Shown piece after piece: positions 27,648 to 35,603 of a stretch of 64,000 bases of DNA. The translations under genes were made by a program, and so were the position numbers. The number at the start of each line of letters is the position of its first letter. The first letter of the stretch is position 1. The DNA lies in assembly GCF_900100925.1 (NCBI RefSeq), contig NZ_FNKO01000001.1:806001-870000 (forward strand). The letters run 5' to 3'. The notes below the pieces were generated by a model. That model did not search any database and was not told where the DNA came from. It worked only from the letters and a program-made list of their open reading frames with translations. The DNA is from Actinopolyspora saharensis (GTDB taxonomy: Bacteria > Actinomycetota > Actinomycetes > Mycobacteriales > Pseudonocardiaceae).

Positions 27648-29000
27648 ATGTCACTTGCTTCGTCGTCGGCCGCCGGGACCTACGAGCTCGACAGGGCTCA
27701 CGTGCTGCACTCGTGGTCGGCCCAGGCCGAGCTGGACCCGATGGTCGTCGAGCGCGCGGAGGGCGTCCACGTCTGGGACGGCGAGGGGCGCTGCTACCTC
27801 GACTTCACCAGCCAGCTGGTCAACACCAACATCGGGCATCAGCACCCGGCCGTGGTCCAGGCCATCCAGTCCCAGGCCGAGCAGTTGTGCACGATCTCGC
27901 CCGCCTGCGCCACGGAGCCGCGCAGCCGGGCCGCGCGGTTGATCGCCGAGCGCACCCCGGAGGGGTTGGACAAGGTCTTCTTCACCAACGGGGGAGCGGA
28001 AGCCGTCGAGAACGCCGTTCGGATGGCGCGGTTGCACACCGGGCGGCACAAGGTGCTCTCGCGGTATCGCTCGTACCACGGCGCGACCACGACGGCGATC
28101 AACCTCACCGGCGATCCCCGGCGCTGGCCCAACGAGCAGTCGGGGGCGGGCGCGGTGCACTTCTTCGGGCCGCATCCCTACCGCTCGCCGTTCCACTCCC
28201 GCGACGAGGGCGAGGAGTGCCGGAGGGCGCTCGAGCACCTCGAGCAGGTGATCGAGTTGGAGGGGCCGGAGACCGTCGCCGCGCTCGTGCTCGAGACGGT
28301 TCCCGGCACGGCGGGCATCATGCCGCCGCCGCCCGGTTACCTGCGGGGGGTGCGCGAGCTGTGCGACCGCTACGGCATCGTCTACATCGCCGACGAGGTC
28401 ATGGCCGGTTTCGGGCGCACCGGCGCGTGGTTCGCCGTGCAGCACTACGACGTGGCCCCGGATCTGATCGCCTTCGCCAAGGGGGTCAACTCCGGCTACG
28501 TCCCGCTGGGCGGGGTGGCCGTCAACGAGGCGATCGCGTCCACGTTCGACCACCGCGCCTATCCCGGTGGGCTCACCTACTCCGGGCATCCGCTCGCCTG
28601 CGCCGCGGCGGTGGCCACCATCACCGCGATGGACGAGGAGGGCATCGTGGACAACGCCGCGACCGTCGGCGCGGAGGTGCTCGGTCCGGGGTTGCGGGAG
28701 CTCGCCGAGCGGCACCCGAGCATCGGGGACGTGCGTGGTCTCGGGGTGTTCTGGGCGCTGGAGCTGGTCACCGATCGTGCGACGAAGGAGCCGGTGGCGC
28801 CGTACGGCGGGTCCAGTCCGGTGATGAAGCGGCTCGTGGCGGAGTGCGCCGAGGCGGGGTTGCTCATCCCCACCACGTACCACCGCGTTCACGTGGTGCC
28901 GCCTTGCACGATCACCGCCCAGCAGGCGCGCGAGGGGCTGGCCGTTCTCGACGGGGCCCTCGACACGGTCGACCGGACCCTGGCCGAGCAGCGCGGCTAG
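27648..29000 (+). CDS. Class III PLP aminotransferase, probably omega-amino acid:pyruvate type
   Basis: Pyridoxal-phosphate enzyme of 450 aa. The PLP lysine lies in IAFAKGVNSGYVPLGG, and IADEVMAGFGRTG is the cofactor-ring segment of class III enzymes. ATG 27648 has GGAAGG 7 nt upstream. It follows mmsA, whose product would oxidise the semialdehyde formed from beta-alanine or 3-aminoisobutyrate, so beta-alanine/omega-amino acid:pyruvate aminotransferase is the best guess; taurine or GABA cannot be excluded. A long hairpin follows. Confidence 0.88.
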   Translation: MSLASSSAAGTYELDRAHVLHSWSAQAELDPMVVERAEGVHVWDGEGRCYLDFTSQLVNTNIGHQHPAVVQAIQSQAEQLCTISPACATEPRSRAARLIAERTPEGLDKVFFTNGGAEAVENAVRMARLHTGRHKVLSRYRSYHGATTTAINLTGDPRRWPNEQSGAGAVHFFGPHPYRSPFHSRDEGEECRRALEHLEQVIELEGPETVAALVLETVPGTAGIMPPPPGYLRGVRELCDRYGIVYIADEVMAGFGRTGAWFAVQHYDVAPDLIAFAKGVNSGYVPLGGVAVNEAIASTFDHRAYPGGLTYSGHPLACAAAVATITAMDEEGIVDNAATVGAEVLGPGLRELAERHPSIGDVRGLGVFWALELVTDRATKEPVAPYGGSSPVMKRLVAECAEAGLLIPTTYHRVHVVPPCTITAQQAREGLAVLDGALDTVDRTLAEQRG

Positions 29001-29086
29001 AGGCGCGAGCGGCGGATTCGTCGTCGGCCGGTCTGGGGGGCGGACCCCGTCGGCACGGTGCGAATCCTCGTTCTCCCCAACAAGGG

Positions 29087-29123
29087 AGCAACAGCGCCCC
29101 CGGCGGACGGGGGCGCTGTTGCT
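29087..29123. terminator. Strong bidirectional terminator
   Basis: Perfect 16-bp stem (29087-29102 and 29108-29123) with a 5-nt loop, between the convergent aminotransferase and DUF397 genes. Confidence 0.9.
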
Positions 29124-29133
29124 TCGGTTCGGT

Positions 29134-29325
29134 TCAGGAGAACCGGTCGGTTTTCACGGCGGCGATGAACGCCTGCCACTGCTGCCGGTCGGCGGTGAAG
29201 TAGCCGAGGCCGCGGTCCTTGGTGTCGCGCACCGCGGCCCCGTCACCGATCCGGCCGACCTCGACGCAACTGCTGTTCTGACCCGACCTACTGGACTTGC
29301 GCCAGTTTTCCGGGTGTAATGTCAT
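29134..29325 (-). CDS. DUF397 protein, partner of the XRE regulator
   Basis: 63 aa DUF397 protein with the family pattern WRKSSRSGQNSSCVEV and a closing AF segment. ATG 29325 overlaps the XRE stop as ATGA and has GGAAGGGA upstream. In streptomycetes DUF397 proteins encoded next to XRE/DUF5753 regulators (WhiJ-type pairs) modulate the DNA-binding partner, often in development or specialised metabolism. Confidence 0.9.
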   Translation of the reverse strand: MTLHPENWRKSSRSGQNSSCVEVGRIGDGAAVRDTKDRGLGYFTADRQQWQAFIAAVKTDRFS

Positions 29326-30167
29326 GGCGTCGTCCCTTCCAATTTTTCCGCCACTCTGGTCATGAGCTCGATGGACTGGTCCGAGCTCATGGCCGTGTCC
29401 GGTAGCGTATCCAGCGCTCGCTCGTAGCTTCTGACGTCCTCGTTGTCGTAGAGGAAAGCCGGACCGCGGTAGTGCTCCAGGTGTACGATCGGCGCAGCTT
29501 TCGGGAATCTGTAGAGCACGAACGCGCCTTCGTGTGCGAGTGTCCACTCTCGCTGGCCATCCGGTATGACGCGCACGTCGACGTTTGCCCGTGAGGCGAT
29601 CTCGAGCAGATGGCGGAGTTGTTCGGTCATGACCTCGGGTCCGCCGAGGTTGCCGTGCAGCACGTGCTCGGTCAAGTAGGCGGTTATCTGTCGTGGTGGC
29701 GAGAGCGCCTCGCGGCGCGCCATGCGCAGTTCAACGCGCAAGTTCCGTTCGTCCGGTTTCAGTCCGCCCATGACGGCGGTCGCGTAAGCGCGCGTCTGGA
29801 GTGGCCCGGGCACCATGAGTGGAGCGACGTGGATGATCTCGCTCGCGTCGCGCTCGAACTCACTGATCTCGACGAGGTTCCGGTGAATGCCTGACTTCGT
29901 GATCATGTTCGGCTCGGAGGCAGAGTGCGCGAACTCGATCAGCTCGTCGTAGCGCTGGCCAGTCACTCCGAACATGCCGAGGACACGGGCGACGTAGTCC
30001 GCGGGCGCGGTACGTGCTCCACGTTCGTATCGCGAAATCGTCGTCTGGGTGATGCCGAGTTCCGCGGCAAGCTGTCGACCGTTGTAACCGGCTTGTTTGC
30101 GCAGGTCGCGCAGTTCCGCGCCGAGCAGGCGAGCCTTTGGAGTGTGCGCCTCGTTGAGTCCGGCCAT
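29322..30167 (-). CDS. XRE-family regulator with DUF5753 domain (WhiJ-type)
   Basis: 281 aa DNA-binding protein: XRE helix-turn-helix (about 20-75, LAAELGITQTTISRYERG) followed by a DUF5753 domain. It is coupled to DUF397 by ATGA overlap and divergent from a row of small genes that runs toward the graspetide cluster. Three repeats with an ACCGGT core lie just upstream of its start and are likely its operator. Confidence 0.92.
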   Translation of the reverse strand: MAGLNEAHTPKARLLGAELRDLRKQAGYNGRQLAAELGITQTTISRYERGARTAPADYVARVLGMFGVTGQRYDELIEFAHSASEPNMITKSGIHRNLVEISEFERDASEIIHVAPLMVPGPLQTRAYATAVMGGLKPDERNLRVELRMARREALSPPRQITAYLTEHVLHGNLGGPEVMTEQLRHLLEIASRANVDVRVIPDGQREWTLAHEGAFVLYRFPKAAPIVHLEHYRGPAFLYDNEDVRSYERALDTLPDTAMSSDQSIELMTRVAEKLEGTTP

Positions 30168-30228
30168 GATTCAACAGTAGTGAAGTGAAGCGTCCGAACA
30201 GTACACCCGATCGAAGGATTGCGAGCTT

Positions 30229-30274
30229 GAAACCGGTTAGAGACGGTGAAACCGGTACATCTGATACCGGTTTC
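30229..30274. promoter_or_regulatory. Three ACCGGT-cored repeats, candidate XRE operator
   Basis: GAAACCGGTT (30229-30238), GAAACCGGTA (30248-30257) and its exact inverted copy TACCGGTTTC (30265-30274). The first two start 19 nt apart, and the last two form a perfect 10-bp dyad with a 7-nt centre. They lie between the divergent XRE gene and the small gene at 30302. Confidence 0.65.
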
Positions 30275-30301
30275 AGTCTATTACTCCGGAAAGGACGCTC
30301 C

Positions 30302-30508
30302 ATGTCGACGAGATCCAGATCACTTGATGGTCCCGGTGTGAAGGTGCCGTGTTGGTCCGAGGGCGGGGCGGTGTCGTTGCGGGTGTCGCAGGTGGACGGC
30401 GAGGTGCGGATCACTACGCCGACGATCTTCAACCGGACGCGGTGGATGTTCGCCCAGGCGCGCGAGCTCCGCGACGTGCTGGATGCGGCGCTTCGGGGGC
30501 GGGCATGA
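30302..30508 (+). CDS. Small protein of unknown function (WhiJ-type locus)
   Basis: 68 aa protein with no family I recognise. ATG 30302 is preceded by GGAAAGGA at suitable spacing, directly downstream of the three-repeat operator, and its stop overlaps the next ATG as ATGA. The middle part looks like alternating strands (VSLRVSQVDGEVRITTP) followed by a helix. Probably controlled by the divergent XRE regulator. Confidence 0.7.
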   Translation: MSTRSRSLDGPGVKVPCWSEGGAVSLRVSQVDGEVRITTPTIFNRTRWMFAQARELRDVLDAALRGRA

Positions 30509-30708
30509 GGCCGGGGGAGCTGGCCGTGTGGGCCGCGCACGAGCAGTGGCGCATGGAGCAGTTGGCCTACGACCTCGCTCGGGGCTCGACCACGGGTGCG
30601 CAGTGCCGGGAGGCGGCATCGGTTTTCGAGGGGATCGCCGCGCGGCTGCGTGGCTTCGCCGACGAGCTCGACGGTGCGGAGGTCGTCGACGGCGGCGTCG
30701 ATGACTAG
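30505..30708 (+). CDS. Small helical protein of unknown function
   Basis: 67 aa, mostly helical, acidic at the C-terminus; no recognised family. The start overlaps the preceding stop (ATGA) and the stop overlaps the next start (ATGACTAG), so it is the second gene of a coupled row. Confidence 0.6.
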   Translation: MRPGELAVWAAHEQWRMEQLAYDLARGSTTGAQCREAASVFEGIAARLRGFADELDGAEVVDGGVDD

Positions 30709-30958
30709 GGCGACGACTTGCCCGCCGTCGCAGGTGGGTGTGCGGGCGGACGCGGCACCCACCGAGATCATGCCTGCCGTGGTGCGGTTGCCGCGCCGGT
30801 CGCGCTGGACGGGGCGATTGCCGCTGTCCGCCGTGGCGAAGCGCCGACCAGGTAGAAGCGAGCTACCTGGTCGGCAGCCCGAGCCTATCCCAGGGCTGTA
30901 CCCGAACCCGGACGAGGACCTGCTCGCCCGCGTGCTGCGCGGACTCCGCGCCCTGTAG
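30701..30958 (+). CDS. Small basic protein of unknown function
   Basis: 85 aa, rich in Arg and Pro, ending in the segment PNPDEDLLARVLRGL. Start ATG 30701 overlaps the previous gene by 8 nt. No family recognised; coupling to its neighbours is the main support. Confidence 0.5.
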   Translation: MTRATTCPPSQVGVRADAAPTEIMPAVVRLPRRSRWTGRLPLSAVAKRRPGRSELPGRQPEPIPGLYPNPDEDLLARVLRGLRAL

Positions 30959-31071
30959 TCCACACCCCGGCGCCGTTGAGCCCCAGCCTCCGGCGCCGGG
31001 TCGCCGCCCGGCCGGTGCTCGCCCCCGAGGGCATCGGCCGGGCTCCCACCACAGCTTTACGGAGGCACACC

Positions 31072-31454
31072 ATGTCCATCCGCCTGCCGAGCCAGTGGCA
31101 CGACCGGGAGATGCATTGGCACGCCCACCGGTCCACCACCGTCACGACCACAAAACTCCGCCGACATCACACCCCACCGCGGTGCTGTACACACCGGCCG
31201 GCGGGGCGACGTGGCTGGCCAACACCATCGCCGCGCACAGCACCGATGCCGTGGCCGTCGAGTGGGGAACTCCTTGGGGCGTGCTCATCGACACCCCTGG
31301 AAGTGATCGCGAGCGCGGGGAATACGCCTTAGCCCACGGCGGCTCGGTCGACGCGCTGGTGCTGACCACCACCGGTCAGCTCTACCTCTACCTCGACCCT
31401 CACACCCGTGAGCAATGCCCAGACCACAGGCCACAGGACACGTCCGTGGTCTGA
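31072..31454 (+). pseudogene. Hypothetical protein gene with a one-base frameshift
   Basis: ATG 31072 with ACGGAGG (31059-31065) opens a protein that is plausible for about 34 residues (SIRLPSQWHDREMHWHAH), after which the protein-like frame continues in another register (TPAGGATWLANTIAA ... QLYLYLDPH) to a stop at 31454. Adding one C to the CCCC run at 31172-31175 would join both into about 127 aa. This is either a recent mutation or a sequencing error. No family recognised; it precedes the graspetide precursor by 161 nt. Confidence 0.55.
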
Positions 31455-31615
31455 ACGAACTCCCCGAGACCACGGGTTGGCGTTGCTCTTCGCCGATCCG
31501 TTTCCGCCGGGCCGGTACTCGCCGGTCTGGTGGTGTCCACCGCTCCTGTCAGGACGTGAGACTGGAGCGGTGATCATCCGGCCACACGGCCGATGAAACA
31601 ACAGGAGGTAGCACC

Positions 31616-31948
31616 ATGACAGTGGTTGATCCGCTGGCCCCGGACAGCGCTCAGTTCCCGCTCGCCCGCCCGAGCGGACTCGCCGAACACACCGACACCG
31701 CTTCACCCGAAGGGGTGCGGCCGTGGGGGCTGCGTGGTATGCGGCCCGTGCCCGCCACAGGCCGTCGTCTGCCGGACTGGCACTACGACCACCACCGGCA
31801 GATGGCCGTCGATTCCGAGGGGCATTCGTTCCGTGAGTTGCGGATGGACCCGACCGCCTACACGGTCAGCAACAACGACGGTGACGAAGGCGTTTCCGAG
31901 GACTGGGTCAACGACTTCGCGCCGGACTTCCCGGGGCCACCCGCATGA
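31616..31948 (+). CDS. Graspetide (ATP-grasp RiPP) precursor peptide
   Basis: 110 aa precursor of the actinobacterial ATP-grasp-modified RiPP family. The leader holds PWGLRGMRPVP (36-46), the conserved ligase-recognition segment of this family. The putative core at the C-terminus begins near TAYTVSNNDGDEG (80-92) and is rich in acceptors (Thr80, Thr83, Ser85, Ser94) and acids (Asp88, Asp90, Glu91, Glu95, Asp96, Asp100, Asp104). It has no lysine, so ring closure should be by esters, and Asp88-Gly89 is a natural aspartimide site. The stop overlaps the ligase start as ATGA; an AGGAGG ribosome site lies upstream. Confidence 0.9.
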   Translation: MTVVDPLAPDSAQFPLARPSGLAEHTDTASPEGVRPWGLRGMRPVPATGRRLPDWHYDHHRQMAVDSEGHSFRELRMDPTAYTVSNNDGDEGVSEDWVNDFAPDFPGPPA

Positions 31949-32886
31949 CCGTTCTCATCCTGGCTCGTGACCTCGATCCGACCGCGGACGAGATGGTGGC
32001 CACGCTGAACGAGCGTGGCACGGCGGTGGCTCGGGTGAACACCGGATGGTTTCCCGCGCAGTTCAGCGTCTCTGCTGGGCTGCGTGGGGGCCGGTGGTCC
32101 GGGCACCTGCACACACCTGGCCAACTTGTCTCCCTCGATGACCTCCACGCCGTGTGGTACCGCAGCCCGGAGGCGTACCGGATGCCGAGCGAACTGTCCG
32201 ACGCAGAGCGCCACCACGCGTTCCTGGAGGCCAAGTACGGGCTCGGCGGCGTGCTGTCCAGTCTGGACGTAGTGTGGATCAACCACCCGTCGCGGATGGC
32301 CGATGCGGCCTACAAGCCCGTGCAGCTCGTGCGCGCCCACGAGTGCGGGCTGACCGTGCCGGACACGCTGATCACCAACGAGCCCGCCCCGGTGCGCGAG
32401 TTCGCCACGGAGCCGACGATCACGAAACTGCTCGGCTCGAACACGCTCTCCGAGGACGGCACCCGCAAGGTGTCCTGGTCCCGCCTGGTCGACCAGGCCG
32501 ACCTGTGCGGCATCGAGACCACCACCCACCTGCTGCAGCGGTGGGTTCCGAAGGACTTCGAAGCACGGGTGGTGGTCATCGGCGAACAGCTGTTCGCAGT
32601 CGCGATCCACGCGGGCAGCACGAGCACCCGTGTCGACTGGCGATCCGACTACGACGCGCTGTCCTACGAACCGATCGATCCGCCGGACTCGGTCGCCGCG
32701 GGGATCCGCGCACTGCTGGACCGCTTCGGGTTGCTCTACGGCGCGCTGGACTTCGTCGTCACCCCGAACGGTGACTGGGTGTTCCTCGAAATCAACCCGG
32801 GCGGGCAGTATGGCTGGCTCGAATCCACAACCGGCCACCCACTGACCAGCGCCCTGGCCGACCTGCTGAGCAAGGGGACCACGTGA
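31945..32886 (+). CDS. ATP-grasp graspetide synthetase
   Basis: 313 aa ATP-grasp ligase that activates side-chain carboxylates of the precursor and joins them to Ser/Thr hydroxyls. Visible segments are the family-type WYRSPE, KYGLGGVL and the metal/ATP site DFVVTPNGDWVFLEINPGG near 270-290. It overlaps the precursor stop (ATGA) and the methyltransferase start (GTGA), so the three genes are made together. Homologues in fuscimiditide and amycolimiditide pathways do the ester cyclisations. Confidence 0.92.
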   Translation: MTVLILARDLDPTADEMVATLNERGTAVARVNTGWFPAQFSVSAGLRGGRWSGHLHTPGQLVSLDDLHAVWYRSPEAYRMPSELSDAERHHAFLEAKYGLGGVLSSLDVVWINHPSRMADAAYKPVQLVRAHECGLTVPDTLITNEPAPVREFATEPTITKLLGSNTLSEDGTRKVSWSRLVDQADLCGIETTTHLLQRWVPKDFEARVVVIGEQLFAVAIHAGSTSTRVDWRSDYDALSYEPIDPPDSVAAGIRALLDRFGLLYGALDFVVTPNGDWVFLEINPGGQYGWLESTTGHPLTSALADLLSKGTT

Positions 32887-34034
32887 CCACACACCTCAAC
32901 ACCAACTGGACCTGGCGAGCACGCCGGCTCGCCGACGAACTCGAAGCACGCGGCGACCTCACCGACCCGGCGTGGAAAACCGCCGTGTCCGCCGTGCCTC
33001 GGCACGTGCTCGTGCCCGAGGCCTACCAGCAGGACAGCACCGGAACGTGGCAGCAGCTGACCACCGACTCCGACGAGGGCCTCGAGTTGGCCTACTCGCC
33101 GACCACCCTGGTCACCCAGCTGGCCCACCGCGGCTCCCATCAGGAATCCACCTCGAGCAGCACCAAACCCGACCTGATCGTGCGCATGCTCGAAACCCTC
33201 GACATCCACGATCAGCACCGGGTGCTGGCGGTGGGCACAGGAACCGGCTACACCACCGCCCTGCTGGCCCACCGGCTCGGCGACCGGCACGTGTGCTCCA
33301 TCGACATCGATCCCGCTCTGGTCGAGGCCGCCCGCACCCGGCTGGCCGGCCTCGGCTACTACCCCACCCTGGGCTGCCGCGACGGCCGCGATGGGCTGGC
33401 CGAGCACGCGCCCTACGACCGCATCATCGCCACCTGCTCGGTACCCCGCGTGCCCTGGAGCTGGGGCGAGCAGCTCAACCCGGGCGGGGCCGTGCTCGTC
33501 GACGTCAAACCCGGCACCCACGCGGGCAACCTCGCCCTGCTGCACCGGTATCCGGACCGGCTGGAGGGGCGCTTCACCGAACGGTGGGCGGCGTTCATGA
33601 CCATGCGTCACCACCTCCACAGTCAGGCCACGCCGCGCGAGAGCACAGAAGGCGCCGAACCACGGATCCGCACCACCACCACGCCACCGAGCCCCTGGTG
33701 GGACAACCGCGTGGTCTGGCTGCTGGCCCACCTGCACGGCATGCCCGCCGGTGTCACCGTCGGCATGCGCCTCGACCCGCACACCCAGCAACCGGCCGCG
33801 GCCACACTCACCGCCCCCGACGGCTCCACCGCCGACATCGGCCTCACCGCCTCCGACGACGGCCGCCACGAGCTCACCGAAACCGGCCCGACCCCGCTGT
33901 GGGACCCCGTCGAACACGCCCACCAGACCTGGCTCGAGCACGACCGGCCCAACTGGCCCCGACTCGGCCTCACCGTCACCACCCATCATCAGCGGCTCTG
34001 GATTGACCACCCCGAAAACAGCCGGGAGCTGTGA
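32883..34034 (+). CDS. Isoaspartyl-type O-methyltransferase of the graspetide cluster
   Basis: 383 aa SAM-dependent methyltransferase related to protein-L-isoaspartate O-methyltransferase: SAM motif VLAVGTGTGYTTALLA, then CSIDIDPALVEAARTRL, with a C-terminal extension (about 230-383) typical of the RiPP-linked subfamily. In aspartimidylated graspetides this enzyme methylates a core aspartate, which then closes to a stable aspartimide. GTG start overlaps the ligase stop. It ends the cluster before a hairpin. Confidence 0.92.
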   Translation: MTTHLNTNWTWRARRLADELEARGDLTDPAWKTAVSAVPRHVLVPEAYQQDSTGTWQQLTTDSDEGLELAYSPTTLVTQLAHRGSHQESTSSSTKPDLIVRMLETLDIHDQHRVLAVGTGTGYTTALLAHRLGDRHVCSIDIDPALVEAARTRLAGLGYYPTLGCRDGRDGLAEHAPYDRIIATCSVPRVPWSWGEQLNPGGAVLVDVKPGTHAGNLALLHRYPDRLEGRFTERWAAFMTMRHHLHSQATPRESTEGAEPRIRTTTTPPSPWWDNRVVWLLAHLHGMPAGVTVGMRLDPHTQQPAAATLTAPDGSTADIGLTASDDGRHELTETGPTPLWDPVEHAHQTWLEHDRPNWPRLGLTVTTHHQRLWIDHPENSREL

Positions 34035-34107
34035 CCCGCACTCCGGAAAAGCGCCCGGAATTTCCGGGGGTGGGGCTGCGCGTCTGTCCTGCGGGTGTGG
34101 AAAACCT

Positions 34108-34127
34108 CCAATTTTGCCTAAAATTGG
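34108..34127. terminator. AT-rich hairpin between convergent genes
   Basis: CCAATTTT-GCCT-AAAATTGG is a perfect 8-bp dyad, striking in this GC-rich DNA, between the methyltransferase (stop 34034) and the PepSY gene (stop 34152). Confidence 0.55.
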
Positions 34128-34151
34128 GAAAACAGCGGACAACCGGGGCTC

Positions 34152-35603
34152 TCACTCGCCCGTGCCCGTCGCGGTGCGCGTGTGCCGACCCGGCCCGCGC
34201 AGGGCGCGGACCAACCGCTCCAGCAGGAGGTAGACCAGGAAGGACGCACCGAGCACGGGCAGGGTCACCATGAGCAGCCCGAACCCGAGCAGCAGCGGCA
34301 GGGGAGTGGTGCGCAGCAACGGCCCCGTTCGGGGCGGCACCCCGAGTCCTCCGGAGGGGCGGCGCAGCCACCAGGTGCGGTATCCGGCGAGAACGAGCAC
34401 GATCAGCGCGGTGGCCAGCAGCGTCAGCCCGATTCGGTTTACCGTGCCGAACAGTTGGGCCTGGTGGAAGTCGATCCCCAGCGTGGTGGCCTTGGCCAGC
34501 AGCGGGTAGTCGTCCCAGCCCACCCGGTCGGTGACCTCACCGCTGCCGGGATCGATGGCCAGGCTGGTGGCGGTGACCGGCCACCGGTTGTCGTCGACAC
34601 TGGCCGTCCACGCCTGGCCCGGCCGTTGCGGGGGTTCGAGCTCGACCACCCCGTGCAGGCCGGCTTCTTCTGCCGTGGCCGCGACCCGGTCGATGCGGGC
34701 GAGGGGATCGGATGTGGCTTCGTGCACCTCGGACCGCCCGGCAGGTCCTCCTCCGGTCGCCGGTGCGGTCGTCAGCTGTGTGGACACCGCGGGGGCGTCC
34801 GAGCGGAACTGGGACTTGGCGAGATCGACCCACGAACCGGCGTACTCGGTCCAGGTCAGCCCGGTGACGACCAGCAGGGCCAGCCCGACGGAGACCACCG
34901 CTCCCAGCGTGCCGTGAAGCGAGCGCCAGCGGGCCCGGCCGGGGCGGCGGAACCGGAAGGCACGCCGCAGGGCCCGTCGGTCGCGGGGCCACCACAGGTA
35001 CAGCCCGGTCAGCAGCGACACCAGCACCCAGCTGGCCGCGAGCTCGGTGAGCGGTGTGGCGATCGTTCCCAACTGCCAGCTGGAGTGCAGGTTGCGCAGC
35101 CACTCCTCGGGCCGGTCGTTCTCGACGATCGAGCCGGTCACCTTCGCCGAGGCCGGATCGACGTAGACGGTCGTGACCCCGCGGGGCTGGCCGAACCTGT
35201 CCGGTTCGGTTTCCGGTGGGCTCAGCGTCACTGCGGTGGTCTGCTCCCCGCCCGGGGCGCGCGGGGCCGCCGGGGTGACCGTCGTGACGCTCCAGTCGGG
35301 GTGGGTGGCGGTCGCGGCGGCCACCTGCTGGCTCAGCGGCCGGGTCGGACCGTCGGCGACCGCGGTGAGCGCTTTGCCGTGCAGGGCTTGCTCGATCTGC
35401 GGGTTCCAGGCGAACAGGATCCCGGTGATCGCCAGCGACAGCACGATCGGTGCGGCCAGCACACCGCCGAGGAAGTGCAGCCGCCACAGCAGTGGCCGCA
35501 GTGCTGCGCGTCCGGCCGTGCCCGAGTTCTTGCTTCGCCGCCCGGATTTCGGTGGCGTGTCCGCTTTCTCCGCGGCGGCTCCGCCGTCGTGCTCGTCTGC
35601 CAT
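34152..35603 (-). CDS. PepSY-associated membrane protein (PiuB-like)
   Basis: 483 aa membrane protein with four main spans (about 35-60, 185-205, 235-260, 400-420 and a last one near 450) and two PepSY-type exported regions; LRNLHSSWQLG and RWRSLHGTLGAV hold the paired His typical of this iron-uptake/ferric-reductase-like family. Monocistronic on the minus strand. Role in metal reduction or uptake is family-based only. Confidence 0.82.
   Translation of the reverse strand: MADEHDGGAAAEKADTPPKSGRRSKNSGTAGRAALRPLLWRLHFLGGVLAAPIVLSLAITGILFAWNPQIEQALHGKALTAVADGPTRPLSQQVAAATATHPDWSVTTVTPAAPRAPGGEQTTAVTLSPPETEPDRFGQPRGVTTVYVDPASAKVTGSIVENDRPEEWLRNLHSSWQLGTIATPLTELAASWVLVSLLTGLYLWWPRDRRALRRAFRFRRPGRARWRSLHGTLGAVVSVGLALLVVTGLTWTEYAGSWVDLAKSQFRSDAPAVSTQLTTAPATGGGPAGRSEVHEATSDPLARIDRVAATAEEAGLHGVVELEPPQRPGQAWTASVDDNRWPVTATSLAIDPGSGEVTDRVGWDDYPLLAKATTLGIDFHQAQLFGTVNRIGLTLLATALIVLVLAGYRTWWLRRPSGGLGVPPRTGPLLRTTPLPLLLGFGLLMVTLPVLGASFLVYLLLERLVRALRGPGRHTRTATGTGE

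Follow-up and report, generated by a model that had tools for sequence, protein, structure and literature searches.

A predicted graspimiditide gene cluster in Actinopolyspora saharensis, and relatives in which its methyltransferase stands without partner genes

The graspimiditides (group 13 graspetides) are the described systems closest to the locus reported here. The four characterised members are described with Thr-Asp esters, and in all four of them a Gly follows the methylated Asp of the loop, according to the review cited (PMC13001092). In fuscimiditide, the ester pairs are Thr7-Asp18 and Thr3-Asp22 with a loop of 10 amino acids, and graspimiditide loops are given there as spanning 10–12 amino acids (PMC12291112). 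The recognition motif of the fuscimiditide precursor, ThfA, is RPFG (PMC13003496).

In the window (the whole stretch of 64,000 nucleotides of A. saharensis DNA that was analysed), three genes on the + strand, for a precursor, a ligase and a methyltransferase, were read as open reading frames that each run 4 bp into the next. The first-pass annotation had described three overlapping genes at these positions and a leader PWGLRGMRPVP at precursor residues 36–46, and both descriptions agree with the sequence. The features of the locus are as follows.

29134..29325, − strand: DUF397 gene overlapping the end of the XRE gene (PF04149, 65.4 bits)
29322..30167, − strand: XRE-family HTH/DUF5753 regulator, a divergent neighbour and possible cluster regulator (DUF5753, 167.1 bits)
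30299..30508, + strand: small ORF that, counting itself, matches five times in the genome (E <= 5e-8) and has no Pfam family
31603..31608, + strand: ribosome-binding site AGGAGG, 7 nt 5' of the precursor ATG, read in the sequence
31616..31948, + strand: precursor gene, 110 aa (TIGR04186, 35.3 bits, cut-off 25; 23 homologues; alignment)
31853..31945, + strand: putative core from Thr80, with Thr80 and Ser85 as donors, Asp88-Gly89 as aspartimide site, and Asp96, Asp100 and Asp104 as acceptors, an assignment inferred from conserved columns
31945..32886, + strand: ATP-grasp graspetide synthetase, 313 aa (TIGR04187, 374.7 bits, cut-off 350; PDB relatives; conserved ATP-grasp residues)
32883..34034, + strand: PIMT-type aspartyl O-methyltransferase with a C-terminal extension, 383 aa, GTG start (PCMT, TIGR04188)

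TIGR04188 is the best NCBIfam match of the methyltransferase and covers it at full length (329.2 bits, E = 3.9e-98, model positions 1–362 of 363), with a score below the cut-off of 380, which three scanned methyltransferase relatives from Actinopolyspora also miss (334–341 bits). The Pfam PCMT domain (95.7 bits) occupies residues 17–218 of 383; Pfam also detected the MvdD pre-ATP-grasp domain, and the precursor had no match to any Pfam family. As in group 13, the cluster holds a RiPP-associated PIMT homologue with a C-terminal extension of more than 100 amino acids, an MvdD/MvdC-like ATP-grasp ligase adjoins the precursor, and the leader is of the TIGR04186 RPxG type (here RPWG, residues 35–38). 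Comparison of the ligase with PDB sequences gave six solved ATP-grasp relatives (best E = 3.5e-46), including CdnC, AMdnB and two entries named 'ATP grasp ligase'; five of the six align over almost the full ligase length at E = 1e-35 or better, and 7drm is a weak match (E = 3e-7). Residues K124, K161, R208, D269, E282 and N284, which we take to be the nucleotide- and metal-binding residues of the ligase, are each kept in 87–92 of the 92 ligase ORFs aligned, all at least 290 aa long and with the window ligase among them, so that a check for missing ATP-grasp catalytic residues, as the first-pass annotation had proposed, does not refute the family reading. Between the window genome and its closest relative, G072, the pN/pS pairs of precursor, ligase and methyltransferase are 0.058/0.22, 0.044/0.15 and 0.062/0.17, respectively. 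Because the homologues align with invariant columns and each of the three genes has a pN far smaller than its pS, these are not chance reading frames; the cluster is genuine and probably functional. Judged from its sequence, it very probably belongs to the group 13 graspetides (graspimiditides), and the NCBIfam and Pfam matches thus uphold the earlier proposal of an aspartimidylated graspetide. Its product is most likely a small peptide, predicted to carry ester rings and one aspartimide.

The precursor has 23 homologues at E <= 1e-3, of which 22 were aligned with it (P0001, 98% identical, was left out). They are 44–81% identical to the window precursor, the named Actinopolyspora precursors at 80–81%, and the closest named relatives are from A. 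xinjiangensis and A. mortivallis. The columns invariant in these 22 homologues and the window precursor include S11, Q13, F14, P15, L16, R35, P36, W37, D88, G89, E95 and D96. At E <= 1e-3, precursor matches occur in 63 of the 297 family genomes and 23 of the 46 genera, window genome included, a count that spans all core types and contains some weak matches; a TIGR04186 match is found in six of the 10 Actinopolyspora genomes. In two loci of S. shandongensis (L008, 2004–2369; L032, 5130–5495), an extra, degenerate-looking precursor without Asp-Gly lies upstream of the normal one. A sequence comparison of the precursor with solved structures gave one chance hit (E = 0.56), and the fuscimiditide and amycolimiditide chains were thus not reached by sequence. 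No paper was found on the core loop NNDGDEG or on graspetides of Actinopolyspora, which does not establish their absence in print.

Neither a transporter nor a leader protease turned up among the neighbourhood ORFs scanned with Pfam, and no structured RNA matched Rfam up to E = 0.1 in 29000–34300. The DUF397 and DUF5753 neighbours (29134–30167) are an optional feature of group 13: pairs of this kind have been described close to clusters of groups 11 and 13, as possible and not required (PMC13097080). The XRE protein has 24 matches in the window genome, itself included, so the XRE/DUF397 pairing may be general. The small ORF at 30299–30508 was rejected as a cluster-specific gene on account of its five clear copies in the genome; a relative of it also precedes a second graspetide cluster of the window genome. 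That cluster (C2:1314387; L073, about 1197–1484) has an RPFG-type leader and the core TTHTDTRYDMQWFVDKD, which contains no Asp-Gly, so that the modified Asp would differ. A defence system was likewise rejected, PADLOC giving only a 53-bit methyltransferase-domain match to mad2. The stretch at 30740–31050, 5' of the precursor, recurs in whole or part at 69–74% DNA identity in G038, G117, G097, G150 and G165, that is, with or without the cluster, and may have a regulatory role or code for a small protein. Next to the cluster is a PepSY gene (34155–35603); this gene is about 30 kb away from the methyltransferase in G072 and about 45 kb away in G188, so the neighbourhood has been rearranged.

A methyltransferase at least 74% identical to that of the window is present in eight of the 10 Actinopolyspora genomes (window included), always as an open ORF; in only three of the eight (window, G072 and G038) are an open precursor and ligase found beside it. 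Four of the 10 genomes, namely G188 (L134), G097 (L135), G150 (L136) and G165 (L137), have lost precursor and ligase by deletion and keep the methyltransferase intact, G117 has a ligase with one in-frame stop next to an open methyltransferase ORF, and G134 has neither the cluster nor a close methyltransferase. (In the pN/pS and DNA alignments, G038 and G117 are contigs L031 and L035.) At the A. mortivallis locus (L035, 5675–6945), codon 39 of the ligase is the stop, and the precursor has a loop shorter by two residues than in the window. In the DNA alignment, homologous DNA of G188 skips from window position 31592 to 32690, and in G097, G150 and G165 the skip, with a junction common to all three, begins at about 31050 and ends at 32851; a ligase stub is left. 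For L067, a swap of the precursor–ligase pair next to a conserved methyltransferase was considered and rejected, since the DNA alignment shows a deletion. TIGR04186 matched nothing in G188, G097 or G165, and the only TIGR04187 matches in these three were a stub in G188 and 20 bits of noise in G097. Two other clusters are present in G150.

The three orphan methyltransferases of the G097/G150/G165 clade differ pairwise by 34/26, 44/40 and 44/46 synonymous/non-synonymous changes, with pN/pS pairs of 0.031/0.12, 0.048/0.15 and 0.054/0.15, far from neutral. The orphan enzyme of this clade is thus under purifying selection, which suggests a further role. Among 17 ORFs conserved in the three genomes at the orphan loci, no peptide precursor was seen; five of the 17, identified by eye as DUF397, XRE, the methyltransferase, a long downstream ORF and a frame that overlaps the latter, have pN/pS below 0.6 in both comparisons. 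It is conceivable, if rather doubtful, that a graspimiditide methyltransferase that has lost its partner acts on another substrate, either in protein isoaspartyl repair or on a peptide encoded elsewhere; if so, the enzyme in Actinopolyspora would stand midway between natural-product biosynthesis and a housekeeping function.

In the 297 family genomes, 10 of 31 methyltransferases (full length, at least 55% identical) have no full ligase (E <= 1e-60) within 1.5 kb, six having none and four a partial one, versus three of 47 full-length ligases without a full methyltransferase; the difference (Fisher p = 0.004, or 0.017 if the shared deletion is counted once) depends on thresholds and hand-copied rows, and the genomes are related and incomplete. 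Of the six ligase-lacking loci inspected, G231 and G196 have ligase 3' stubs adjoining the methyltransferase, G112 has a broken ligase, G069 has both genes as degraded copies, and G180 and G062 have no ligase trace. Lone copies of the methyltransferase were already known, since a survey placed only 2806 of 9408 such enzymes in known RiPP classes (PMC10787088). What is new here is the recent loss of the partner with constraint on the methyltransferase remaining; among the papers listed on orphan PIMT and RiPP enzymes, none was on partner loss, judged by title.

The core region comprises approximately residues 77–110 of the precursor, and its columns are numbered here with Asp88 as 0. From a wider collection, the analysis kept the 83 unique precursor rows that contain the DG motif and set aside 17 that lack it; ring positions were counted after removal of two false hits from the 83 (L102 and a second frame of L010). 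The 46 type-A precursors were chosen by a pattern that demanded an acid at +7 and Asp at +8 and +12, so these three acids prove nothing in that set; in the columns not demanded, a hydroxyl residue occurs at −3 (Ser85) in 46 of 46 and at −8 (Thr80) in 43, and an acid at +16 (Asp104) in 46. A second set of 52 sequences, picked only by length and by the loop motif DG[DNQ][EDR]G without a following Asp, has hydroxyls at −3 in 51 and at −8 in 44, and acids at +8, +12 and +16 in 50, 47 and 46, respectively; in 13 of the 52, the −8 and −3 residues are the sole Ser/Thr within −9 to −1. The −8 hydroxyl is absent in eight (four type-C sequences, L019, L021, L004, with a loop shorter by two residues, and L107, where the −3 hydroxyl is missing too). 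In the sister type B, with 18 precursors that stop at the second Asp, position −8 is Thr (17) or Ser (1) and position −4 is Thr in all 18; with Asp at +9 and +13, fixed by its selection pattern, this type fits a 4/4 spacing with a 12-residue loop. All of these column counts come from related sequences and are not independent.

Column conservation favours, at about even chances, a model with exactly two nested esters, Ser85-Asp96 and Thr80-Asp100. Ser85-Asp96 would enclose residues 86–95, a loop of 10 amino acids as in fuscimiditide, and Asp96 and Asp100 would reproduce the fuscimiditide acceptor spacing of four. If the model is right, the Ser inner donor and the 5/4 stem spacing would be departures from fuscimiditide, the former also from all four characterised members, which are described with Thr-Asp esters. 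However, the donor spacing of five (80 to 85) compared with four in fuscimiditide, and an Asp104 left unused, count against two rings, and the same columns could tentatively be read as three nested esters in a peptide of the same family, Ser85-Asp96, Thr83-Asp100 and Thr80-Asp104. The acid at +16 lies outside the type-A selection pattern and is nevertheless universal there, the acceptors at 96, 100 and 104 are evenly spaced, and a third ester can be engineered into fuscimiditide (PMC12291112). The type-A residue at the Thr83 position is Ser/Thr in 25 of 46, Lys in 15, Asn in five and Ala in one; Ser, Thr and Lys are all possible nucleophiles and together make up 40 of the 46, so Thr83 may be a third donor, although the six rows with Asn or Ala still keep the acid at +16. 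Since Thr83 gives way mostly to Ser or Lys in the relatives and Asp104 varies as little as Asp100, the third ring is a live rival to the two-ester model. The relatives thus constrain both donors and acceptors, and to call the ring pattern unpredictable, as the first-pass annotation did, was too strong; its remark that lysine is lacking holds for the window precursor and fails for the core type, given the Lys of those 15 rows.

Asp88-Gly89 is the likely aspartimide site, as had been proposed, and it is invariant in the 23 aligned sequences. Of the 17 fetched rows without DG, two otherwise resemble this precursor family (L074 with Asn-Gly and L092 with Asp-Arg), and the remainder are other cores, fragments or wrong frames. 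The enzyme chemistry, step order and loop topology are taken over from the characterised members. By this analogy, the ATP-grasp enzyme would bind the RPWG leader motif and activate core Asp side chains by phosphorylation, and the activated Asp residues would react with Ser/Thr hydroxyls to give nested omega-esters and hence a stem-loop. The methyltransferase would then methylate Asp88 in the loop, and attack of the Gly89 amide on the methylated Asp88 would release methanol and leave the aspartimide. A somewhat unlikely variant is that the ligase makes the rings and the end product is isoaspartate, not a stable aspartimide, as in SsfA(BM), which was purified as an isoAsp/Asp mixture (PMC13001092); the aspartimides of fuscimiditide and amycolimiditide also hydrolyse mainly to isoAsp (PMC13001092; PMC10787088), whereas for the three remaining characterised graspimiditides the purified form was the aspartimide (PMC13001092). 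The losses in Actinopolyspora could also mean that the window cluster is decaying or silent, with the methyltransferase kept for, e.g., isoaspartyl repair, since it is open in all five genomes with a deletion or a ligase stop; in the window genome, however, all three ORFs are open, and precursor and ligase have pN/pS ratios of about 0.26 and 0.29 in the comparison with G072, and we consider decay improbable.

The probably functional cluster, with its predicted aspartimide product, yields a specific ring prediction, open to test, for a core type that is spread over Pseudonocardiaceae-type relatives, would have an inner Ser donor and an uneven stem and, to our knowledge, has no characterised member. 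The variants of this core found in nature, with Lys in place of Thr83, with two donors or without a tail, would reveal how graspetide ligases choose their partners, and the orphan methyltransferases are a natural test of an aspartimide-forming enzyme without its peptide. The comparisons suggest that the window cluster adds to the known graspimiditide family and that its relatives point to the ring-forming residues.

The putative ATP-grasp-modified RiPPs of the TIGR04186 family in Actinopolyspora and Saccharopolyspora, of which we know no characterised product, are direct homologues of the window precursor, and differ from it where they carry the type-A Lys in place of Thr83. Amycolimiditide (AmdA/AmdB/AmdM), albusimiditide and SsfA(BM) share the group 13 gene set and a stem-loop with a modified Asp-Gly in the loop; compared by description only, amycolimiditide has four cross-links and the four characterised members two to five, against two or three donor positions in the window (80, 85 and perhaps 83). 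Fuscimiditide (ThfA/ThfB/ThfM, Thermobifida fusca) is likewise encoded by a precursor, one ATP-grasp enzyme and one PIMT homologue, with an RP(F/W)G leader motif, and, if the pairs are indeed Ser85-Asp96 and Thr80-Asp100, would agree with the window peptide in its 10-residue loop and four-residue acceptor spacing. In a comparison made without the full ThfA sequence, the window differs in its donor spacing (five versus four) and its inner donor (Ser versus Thr), and its core, unlike that of fuscimiditide, has a C-terminal tail with a third conserved Asp.
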